From contig JADLCD010000086.1 in NCBI GenBank assembly GCA_020847395.1, positions 1-53,963 of the forward strand: a DNA stretch of 53,963 nucleotides. Reading direction: 5' to 3'. The translations under genes and the position numbers were made by a program. This document shows, one piece after another, positions 1 to 27,449 of the stretch (position 1 is the stretch's first letter; every line of letters begins with the position of its first letter). Source of the stretch: Chitinophagaceae bacterium (lineage in GTDB: Bacteria; Bacteroidota; Bacteroidia; Chitinophagales; Chitinophagaceae). The notes beneath the pieces are model-generated. The model was not told the origin of the DNA and did no database searches. It was given only the letters and a program-made list of their open reading frames with translations.

Positions 1-83
1 AAGAACTATATAAAAGACGATTCTGTATACACACTTTCTCCCGATCCAATCGGGACTCCTTCAACCACTCGGACACGTCTCCG
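1..83 (-). pseudogene. tRNA-Ser-like unit A, cut by window edge
   Basis: Last unit of the array in the direction of reading, truncated by the end of the window. It has GGAGACGTGTCCGAGTGG, the palindrome TCCCGATTGGATCGGGA (plus-strand 39-55), and GAAAGTGTGTATAC. More copies or an intact tRNA gene may lie beyond the edge. Confidence 0.6.
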
Positions 84-87
84 TAAA

Positions 88-171
88 AAAGAACTATATA
101 AAAGACGATTCCGTATACACACTTTCTCCCGCTCGAATCGGGACTCCTTCAACCACTCGGACACGTCTCCG
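88..171 (-). pseudogene. tRNA-Ser-like unit B
   Basis: Same layout as its neighbours: intact GGAGACG, normal D-arm words, a palindrome at 127-143 whose minus-strand form is TCCCGATTCGAGCGGGA, then GAAAGTGTGTATACGG and an AT-rich tail. The palindrome differs from that of units A and C in the loop and carries one mismatch in the stem. The units have therefore diverged rather than being a recent exact copy. The T-arm is missing. Confidence 0.65.
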
Positions 172-175
172 TAAA

Positions 176-268
176 AAGAACTATATAAAAAACGATTCCC
201 GTACACACACTTTCTCCCGATCCAATCGGGACTCCTTCAATCCCGCTATTGCGGGGAACACGTCTCCG
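176..268 (-). pseudogene. tRNA-Ser-like unit C, two arms replaced by palindromes
   Basis: This is the promoter-proximal unit. The acceptor 5' strand GGAGACG is intact. The 8-nt D-arm core CCGAGTGG seen in the other two units is replaced exactly by the 17-nt palindrome TCCCCGCAATAGCGGGA (plus-strand positions 241-257). A second 17-nt palindrome occupies the anticodon position (215-231). There is no T-arm and no encoded CCA. It cannot fold as a normal tRNA. Confidence 0.65.
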
Positions 269-279
269 TAAAAAGACTG

Positions 280-287
280 CAAAAGTA
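280..287 (-). promoter_or_regulatory. Candidate -7 box (TACTTTTG) upstream of the tRNA-like array
   Basis: The minus strand reads TACTTTTG here, matching the Bacteroidota -7 consensus TAnnTTTG. The box ends 11 nt before the first tRNA-like base, about where a tRNA precursor would begin. No clean -33 TTTG is seen upstream, only T-rich sequence. If real, the array is transcribed in the tRNA direction. Confidence 0.45.
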
Positions 288-25916: not shown

Positions 25917-27449
25917 ATGAGTACTACAGCAAAAGCTACCGGTAAATCTACGCTTGCGTCCCGCCCGGCATTCAGAGAAAAATACGATCACTTTATTGGA
26001 GGTAAATGGGTAAAACCCGATAGCGGGGAATACTTTGATAATATATCGCCAATTGATGGAAAAGTATTTACCAAAGCCGCCAGGGGTAACGCCAAAGACA
26101 TTGAAAAAGCTATTGATGCGGCTCACAAAGCGTTTGAAACATGGAGTAAAACAGCGGCGGCCTACCGCAGTAACCTGTTACTAAAAATTGCACAAATTGT
26201 AGAAGACAACCTCGAATATCTTGCTATCGTAGAAACAATAGATAATGGTAAAGCCATCCGTGAAACAAGAGCGGCAGATTTGCCCCTGGTGGTTGATCAT
26301 TTCCGCTATTTTGCGGGTGTAATAAGAAGTGAAGAAGGAACTGTAAGTGAACATGATGATAGTACGGTAAGCATTAACCTTCACGAACCGATTGGCGTGG
26401 TTGGGCAAATCATTCCCTGGAATTTTCCTTTATTGATGGCGGCCTGGAAAATAGCACCGGCACTGGCTGCAGGCTGTACCGTAGTAGTTAAACCTGCAGA
26501 ACAAACGCCAACAAGTATTATGTGCCTGTTAGAGTTAATTGAAGAAGTGTTGCCTGCCGGTGTATTAAATGTAGTAACAGGCTTTGGTGTAGAAGCAGGT
26601 AAACCACTGGCTTCATCATCAAGAATAAATAAAGTGGCATTTACCGGAGAAACAACTACAGGCAGGCTGATTATGCAATACGCCTCTGAAAATCTTATAC
26701 CTGTTACAATGGAATTGGGCGGTAAAAGCCCGAATATATTTTTTGAAAGTGTTGGAGATGCAGATGATGAATTTTTTGATAAAGCGGTAGAAGGCGCTGT
26801 ATTATTTGCACTGAACCAGGGAGAAGTTTGTACCTGCCCGTCAAGAATATTGGTGCATGAAAAAATCTACGACAAATTCATGGAAAGGGTAATTCAGCGT
26901 ACCAAAGCCATTAAAATGGGTAACCCGCTCGATGGCACAGTGATGATGGGTGCACAGGCAAGTGAAGATCAATACAATAAAATTTTAAGCTACCTGGATA
27001 TTGGTAAACAGGAGGGCGCACAGGTACTTACCGGCGGAGAAGCATTTCATCAAAACAGCGGACTGGAACATGGCTATTATATTCAGCCAACCATATTTAA
27101 GGGAAACAACAAGATGCGTGTTTTCCAGGAAGAAATTTTTGGACCTGTGGTTTGCGTTACAACTTTTAAAACCACAGAAGAAGCCATAGCAATAGCCAAT
27201 GATACTTTATACGGACTTGGCGCAGGTGTGTGGACAAGAGATGCACATGAGTTATACCAGGTGCCAAGAGCAATACAGGCCGGCCGCGTTTGGGTAAACT
27301 GCTACCATGCTTACCCTGCACATGCGCCATTTGGCGGATATAAAAAATCGGGCTTTGGCAGAGAAACACACAAGATGATGCTCAATCATTATCGCCAGAC
27401 AAAAAACATGTTGATATCATATAACAAAAACAAACTGGGGTTCTTTTAG
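25917..27449 (+). CDS. NAD(P)-dependent aldehyde dehydrogenase
   Basis: 510 residues, the standard length for class I/II ALDH. It oxidises an aldehyde to the acid. Visible motifs are [21 protein letters not shown] (cofactor region), [10 protein letters not shown], the general-base Glu in MELGGKSPN and the catalytic Cys in [11 protein letters not shown]. The sequence is close to the AldB/ExaC acetaldehyde dehydrogenase group. It is flanked by a divergent AraC-family regulator and followed by a DUF779 gene, a pairing known for this ALDH group. Probable role: detoxification or use of short-chain aldehydes. Confidence 0.93.

Follow-up and report, generated by a model that had tools for sequence, protein, structure and literature searches.

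According to the main text of the paper describing it (PMC13096335), SegB of the T-even phages is a free-standing GIY-YIG homing endonuclease that lies beside tRNA genes of many isotypes and cuts inside tRNA genes; in phage T6 it is needed for the tandem amplification, by homologous recombination, of a 718-bp unit made up of tRNA-Tyr and segB. The string "palindrom" has no occurrence in that main text (PMC13096335). The GIY-YIG genes of Bacteroidota considered here resemble segB in adjoining tRNAs of many isotypes, outside introns and inteins, and their products may cut there as well. They differ from SegB in that the loci are chromosomal, the enzymes are small and single-domain, and the nuclease lineages largely track the tRNA isotype. 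The loci are also flanked, unlike those of SegB, by polarised tRNA halves in which one arm has been replaced by a hairpin. Among solved structures, the best match of the nuclease linked to tRNA-Ser is to the UPF0213-type small GIY-YIG proteins (PDB 1zg2 and 1ywl; E = 5.4e-9).

Two cellular arrangements share part of this anatomy. Integrative elements at tRNA 3' ends produce the order full tRNA, element, 3' tRNA fragment. The nuclease loci have the same order, but the inserted element is one nuclease ORF of ~300 bp, and upstream 5' halves and hairpin swaps are present in addition; no integrase was noticed at the nuclease loci read by eye. The tyrT/rtT repeats of Escherichia coli are tandem repeats with a tRNA fragment lying in a tRNA transcription unit, and the arrays at the nuclease loci are likewise tandem repeats with a tRNA fragment; the E. 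coli fragment differs in being the 3' end of the tRNA, placed downstream of it, with no hairpin swap or nuclease known there. No description of such tRNA-nuclease loci was found in searches of open-licence PubMed Central.

The window, that is, the whole 53,963-nucleotide stretch that was analysed, is the entire contig C87 of a 190-contig draft (source genome, G000); its position 1 is therefore an assembly end. Three tRNA-Ser-like units, each starting with GGAGACG (at 267, 170 and 82), lie on the minus strand next to this end. The features, delimited from the sequence, are as follows:

280 to 287, minus strand: promoter-like box TACTTTTG, the only TA..TTTG between 330 and 1 on this strand
171 to 267, minus strand: unit 3, the promoter-proximal tRNA-Ser 5' half, with two hairpins and the T arm lost
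241 to 257, minus strand: D-arm hairpin of unit 3, TCCCCGCAATAGCGGGA
215 to 231, minus strand: anticodon-arm hairpin of unit 3, TCCCGATTGGATCGGGA
83 to 170, minus strand: unit 2, a tRNA-Ser 5' half with the anticodon arm swapped and the T arm lost
127 to 143, minus strand: anticodon-arm hairpin of unit 2, TCCCGATTCGAGCGGGA
1 to 82, minus strand: unit 1, truncated by the contig end
39 to 55, minus strand: anticodon-arm hairpin of unit 1, TCCCGATTGGATCGGGA

The box fits the Bacteroidetes -7 promoter box (consensus TAnnTTTG). A preliminary description of this DNA had recognised tRNA-Ser-like repeats on the minus strand, downstream of one box and without a T arm, and had inferred that the tRNA gene was amplified together with its leader. 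All of this is borne out: the T arm is absent from all three units, each carries a leader-like spacer, and the units derive from tRNA-Ser(GGA), being a close match to the gene of the same genome. The count of three units also stands, but their lengths, given there as 84-93 bp, are 97, 88 and 82 bp (promoter-proximal first, the 82-bp unit being truncated at the contig end). The tRNA-Ser-like D-arm that it assigned to every unit is intact in units 1 and 2, and unit 3 has TCCCCGCAATAGCGGGA in place of CCGAGTGG.

GGAGACGTGT and GAAAGTGTGT(A/G)TAC are common to units 1-3. Units 1 and 2 consist, in order, of the 5' half of tRNA-Ser(GGA) (GGAGACGTGTCCGAGTGGTTGAAGGAG), a hairpin, GAAAGTGTGTATAC, and an AT-rich spacer that replaces the T arm; unit 3 is built in the same way (GAAAGTGTGTGTAC) apart from its additional D-arm replacement. 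The hairpin, of the form TCCCG...CGGGA, takes the place of CACGCCTG, which in tRNA-Ser(GGA) makes up the 5' strand of the anticodon arm and some of its loop; it is TCCCGATTGGATCGGGA in units 1 and 3 and TCCCGATTCGAGCGGGA in unit 2. This replacement had been missed earlier. A tRNA gene "broken and then amplified" was the proposal, and tandem amplification is indeed seen, but the breakage is not random: a defined arm has been swapped for a hairpin. The pattern TCCCGN7CGGGA occurs three times in the window, always in the array, as against a mean of 0.00 in 100 shuffles. Judged from the sequence, the array units are disabled copies of tRNA-Ser(GGA) in which a hairpin stands in for an arm, and not merely decayed ones.

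ARAGORN found no tRNA in the window; Rfam gave no match in it at the gathering scores, and no tRNA match in positions 1-400 at E up to 1. The lack of any covariance match in the units agrees with the decayed state proposed for them. A SAM-II riboswitch candidate on the plus strand (247-293) scored 19.5 bits, below the gathering score of 44, and was taken as chance. Selection for a tRNA-like RNA fold was rejected, the window's own units having z-scores of -0.16, -0.76 and -1.07 against shuffles. So was a new anticodon: the loops in the window can be read as TGG, TCG or TTT, and those of other genomes vary in length and often have no U33.

Leftward extension had been suggested as a check, and the array does resume at the end of contig C147 of the same genome. 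The putative join of the two contigs rests on a matching repeat and a 6-base overlap judged by eye, and the full copy number of this array falls in the assembly gap. On C147, the putative continuation reads:

26794 downward: fourth unit, preceding the intact tRNA-Ser(GGA)
26608 to 26695: intact tRNA-Ser(GGA), read by ARAGORN; covariance 54.7 bits
26131 to 26226: tail tRNA-Ser copy with TCCCGATTTTATCGGGA as anticodon arm and an intact T arm; 43.3 bits

A 93-aa GIY-YIG ORF begins ~40 bp past the intact tRNA-Ser(GGA) and is followed by the tail copy. What is seen in the sequence is thus a promoter-like box, tandem hairpin-swapped 5' halves and then, on the next contig, an intact tRNA-Ser, a GIY-YIG ORF and a hairpin-bearing downstream copy. 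In the assembled sequence, the stretch from the first unit to the intact gene contains no second TA..TTTG box. Since no other promoter-like box was noticed there, the array is probably transcribed as the leader of the intact tRNA-Ser(GGA).

The source genome has 32 tRNA matches, made up of 30 read by ARAGORN, the tail copy and one tRNA-Leu(GAG); one intact tRNA-Ser(GGA) gene was found. Among the 30 distinct tRNAs read with their flanks, three (Met, Leu-TAA and Ser-GGA) have damaged copies nearby, and the same three have a GIY-YIG ORF 39-51 bp downstream, the Met-linked one having been missed by the pattern scan and recognised on reading the locus. At L311 (G000:C164:17100-18000), tRNA-Leu(TAA) is accompanied by a GIY-YIG gene, an upstream copy with a D-loop hairpin (CCTGCCTGCCGGTAGGCAGG) and a tail; at L307 (G000:C9:4700-5200), tRNA-Met has a GIY-YIG gene and a tail. 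L313 (G000:C77:6878-7033) holds the remnant of a Leu-type GIY-YIG gene and a decayed tRNA-Leu-like tail (by eye), with no intact tRNA found adjacent. TCCCG..CGGGA palindromes are also dispersed through this genome, with 46 occurrences (five in the Ser locus) versus 7 in the reversed control. A TCCCGCCTGGGCGGGA type recurs among the 46. Given these dispersed palindromes, it is possible that the hairpins were inserted by an unrelated process.

The ORF on C147 matches PF01541 at 56.7 bits (cut-off 22.6). Y4, Y15, R25 and E61, presumably the catalytic residues of GIY-YIG nucleases, are among eight positions that are invariant in 16 chosen tRNA-linked nucleases, the first row being the protein of the source genome. 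The four proteins that were checked are 80-93 aa long with a single domain. NCBIfam has no family for the Ser-linked nuclease, and its phage matches (18 records) all lie below 60% identity. When 59 small GIY-YIG proteins were placed in a tree (79 columns, many open forks; 68 rows less eight tandem or duplicate ones and a short one), the labels for the adjacent tRNA need 18 changes, compared with a mean of 32.6 when shuffled and none as low in 200 shuffles. The label "none" meant no intact tRNA within 260 bp, and L316, L357, L344, L133 and L347 were labelled by the nearest tRNA at any distance. A separate clade is formed by 18 proteins that have no intact tRNA within 260 bp. The Ser-GGA rows do not make up a single clade: 11 of the 15 fall together, and G044 and three others lie elsewhere. 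From the difference between 18 and 32.6 label changes, the nuclease lineages appear largely, not strictly, to follow the tRNA isotype across genera.

A DNA search of 195 genomes (G000 included) and a pattern scan of an 84,980-species collection brought out the same Ser swap in other Chitinophagaceae, namely G095, G044, G038, Niabella pedocola (L133), Paraflavitalea pollutisoli (L149), a Niastella sp. (L180) and several MAGs. G095 has five units, and G044 has units at the ends of two contigs. The 84,980-species scan returned 95 stretches, many of them chance matches or ordinary tRNA-Ser in which a GAAAGTG-like place occurs a second time; only those with both a tRNA-Ser context and a hairpin were used. 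In Gammaproteobacteria and Pseudomonadales MAGs (L105:3175-3228 and L157:4256-4309), a tRNA-Ser-like gene carries 34 bases in the place expected for the anticodon-arm octamer.

By pattern search, Ser-type hairpin units occur in 14 of 394 genomes of the family and 10 of its 101 genera (reversed control, 0). At the tRNA, nine of these 14 genomes have an open GIY-YIG ORF, G302 has a broken one and G293 one probably cut by the contig end (the last two by eye). The remaining three have no ORF at the locus, and the proposition that the array is always accompanied by a GIY-YIG gene was rejected on these. When 89 of 90 tRNA-Ser(GGA) loci were tabulated, each from a different genome (G002, truncated at a contig end, was left out), copies and a GIY-YIG gene were found together in five, copies only in two, a GIY-YIG gene only in four and neither in 78 (Fisher p = 5.9e-5), with the qualification that one of the five (G024) has a nuclease of another lineage, one of the two (G088) has an ordinary neighbouring tRNA-Ser (by eye), and three of the four have other nuclease types 149-492 bp away.

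The Ser hairpin loops vary among genomes and the TCCCG/CGGGA stem is kept. In an alignment of 18 chosen units from 16 genomes, the five outer pairs are invariant, and the two inner pairs change on both sides in nine cells, with as many in 0 of 500 shuffles; the invariance is limited to these 18 units, since the alignment does not include those of L169 (hairpin CATCCCGGCG..GACGGGA) and L251, which has a different hairpin. Some of the conservation that it shows arises by construction, because both Ser search patterns fix the bases flanking the hairpin; the 394-genome pattern also fixes the outermost T and the final GA, and the hairpin itself was free in the 84,980-species scan. In the G325 row a single base is in error ahead of the D-arm hairpin (GACGTG instead of GACGCG), at a position outside the counted helix. 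D-arm hairpins are also found in G110 (L215), L092 and G252 (L289), and in imperfect form in G325 (L283). A promoter-like box precedes the first unit, once, in 12 of 19 array stretches and lies inside the array in none of the 19; the other seven are continuation pieces or have no visible box.

Similar anatomy is found in Bacteroidota for at least 12 tRNA species. When 17 further relatives were searched with PF01541 and the loci read, versions were seen for Asp, Ala, Val, Pro-GGG, Pro-TGG, Arg-CCG, Arg-ACG, Arg-TCT, Asn and Met. For example, GCA[TCTGC..GCAGA]GGG of tRNA-Val becomes GCA[TCCCG..CGGGA]GGG at L326, and GCA[TCTGA..TCAGA]AGG of tRNA-Arg becomes GCA[TCCCG..CGGGA]AGG at L365. The swapped arm is not always that of the anticodon: it is the D arm in Arg-TCT and Pro-TGG and the T arm in several Asp loci, and in the cases read, where the anticodon arm was spared, another arm was swapped. 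Tandem nuclease ORFs with tRNA copies between them occur at L133, at the Val locus of G004 and at the Asp locus of G095; the Asp locus of G065 has tandem nuclease ORFs with no tRNA copies detected between them. Eight tandem GIY-YIG matches at ~366-bp spacing were seen in another family of the same class (G524:C34:6988-9766).

A profile made from 16 tRNA-linked nucleases finds matches in 73 of 118 genomes from this phylum. Among 28 high-scoring loci, each from a different genome, 21 have an intact tRNA no more than 150 bp away, and damaged copies of that tRNA are present at 17 of these 21; of the rest, three have no tRNA and four have one at 157-319 bp. In G510, a member of another class, the tRNA-Val locus (L383) has two 5' halves upstream of the intact tRNA; the nuclease follows the tRNA at 7 bp, and a 3' copy lies downstream. 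Each of these three copies has a swapped anticodon arm, one of them imperfectly.

The orientation of the copies was analysed at 59 hand-listed loci (31 belonging to the family and to named relatives, 28 taken from the phylum search), of which 55 have an adjacent tRNA within 330 bp and 53 have copies. Copies were taken from crude BLAST chaining, by which short or heavily swapped ones (e.g., the G110 unit) are missed. Counted by locus (53), 5'-only copies lie upstream of the intact tRNA at 25 and 3'-only copies at 0; downstream, 3'-only copies occur at 29 and 5'-only copies at 3. Counted by copy, the upstream set comprises 36 with the 5' end only, 0 with the 3' end only, 6 with neither and 4 with both, and the downstream set 40 with the 3' end only, 5 with the 5' end only, 7 with neither and 14 with both. 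The TCCC..GGGA hairpin is present in 49 of 79 distinct copies and absent from 30, compared with 1.1% of mononucleotide shuffles. The Ser-GGA loci had been selected in part by the hairpin motif itself; with them set aside, the hairpin is present in 34 of 61 copies. A perfect stem of at least 6 occurs in 61 of the 79 versus 9.7% of shuffles. In 87 of 93 comparisons a copy has the same acceptor end as the intact tRNA beside it, a pattern consistent with local duplication or gene conversion. A foreign cargo tRNA was considered and rejected: the acceptor ends mismatch in 6 of 93, only L295 resembles a different allele, and the first L180 unit also differs by eye.

On balance, we favour the reading that the window holds the upstream array of a tRNA-Ser(GGA)-GIY-YIG locus, one of a group of loci in which a free-standing, SegB-like nuclease is specific for a tRNA and recombination driven by it has shaped the surroundings. 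The nuclease would be a free-standing SegB-like endonuclease specific for its own tRNA gene. By analogy with SegB, breaks made at that gene, followed by recombinational repair, may create the flanking tRNA copies and amplify them. Hairpin-swapped copies are proposed to persist because they would escape cutting, recombine less with the intact gene and cease decoding. Counting against such a nuclease locus, the intact tRNA beside the nuclease shows no visible recoding, identical or nearly identical genes being present in nuclease-free relatives.

That the copies are neutral debris seems rather unlikely. Copies made by slippage or unequal crossing-over would lose function and, because they are non-coding, gather the dispersed palindromes, with the GIY-YIG gene a passenger that prefers tRNA ends. 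The 46 palindromes of the source genome (7 in the reversed control) speak for this, as do hairpin-holding tRNA-like relics seen by eye at L196:1501-1520 (G020) and L192:1501-1517 (G065), where no GIY-YIG gene or intact tRNA was detected within ~1.5 kb, the missing ORF in three unit-bearing genomes, and the lack of excess RNA folding in the window's own units. Random accumulation is, however, difficult to reconcile with the recurrence, across many genomes and several isotypes, of swaps in the same arm with the same boundaries, with the locus polarity of 25:0 and 29:3, and with largely isotype-specific nuclease lineages. The inner pairs of the Ser hairpin also covary (0 of 500 shuffles as high), which independent insertions would yield as well.

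The near-zero z-scores of the window's own units, a spacer and 3' part that differ among most genera, and the patchy distribution (14 of 394 genomes) make it quite improbable that the units act as functional RNA, either decoys or leader elements, which once transcribed would bind an enzyme that processes or attacks tRNA and thereby protect or regulate tRNA-Ser. Such a role would find support in the single box before the first unit in 12 of 19 array stretches, with none inside the arrays, in the likeness of the 5' half and hairpin stem among the 18 units (partly due to the construction of the search), and in the predicted folds of units 1 and 2, which pair GGAGACG with CGTCTTT. An assembly artefact at the contig end is hardly credible: the array does lie at two contig ends in a draft of 190 contigs, but a complete array of five units is found inside the 8.4-Mb contig G095:C1, and a unit with tandem nuclease copies lies inside a 2.9-Mb contig of Niabella pedocola.

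A more specific model, which we regard as somewhat doubtful, is that these are home-and-rescue elements. The nuclease would cut one tRNA gene in an arm, and repair from a donor would insert the complete tRNA together with the nuclease gene into the break, leaving the 5' half of the broken gene on the upstream side and the 3' half on the downstream side to serve as homology arms. The swaps would make the halves uncuttable and the carried tRNA would rescue the cell. Each element would then amount to a gene drive living as a parasite of an essential tRNA, and different isotypes would have lineages of their own. The polarity of the copies fits this model; the shared acceptor ends (87 of 93) and an intact tRNA that is not visibly recoded stand against it.

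If the reading as tRNA-specific nuclease loci shaped by nuclease-driven recombination is correct, tRNA-like repeats and small "GIY-YIG family protein" ORFs beside tRNAs in draft genomes are best read together, as one locus, and such loci would explain some of the contig breaks (G000, G044 and G003). Many tRNA genes of Bacteroidota would then bear a dedicated nuclease along with the scars of its activity. These loci would represent a compact, repeatedly arising system in which to study the persistence of a nuclease beside an essential gene that it may cut, possibly a natural counterpart of home-and-rescue gene drives.
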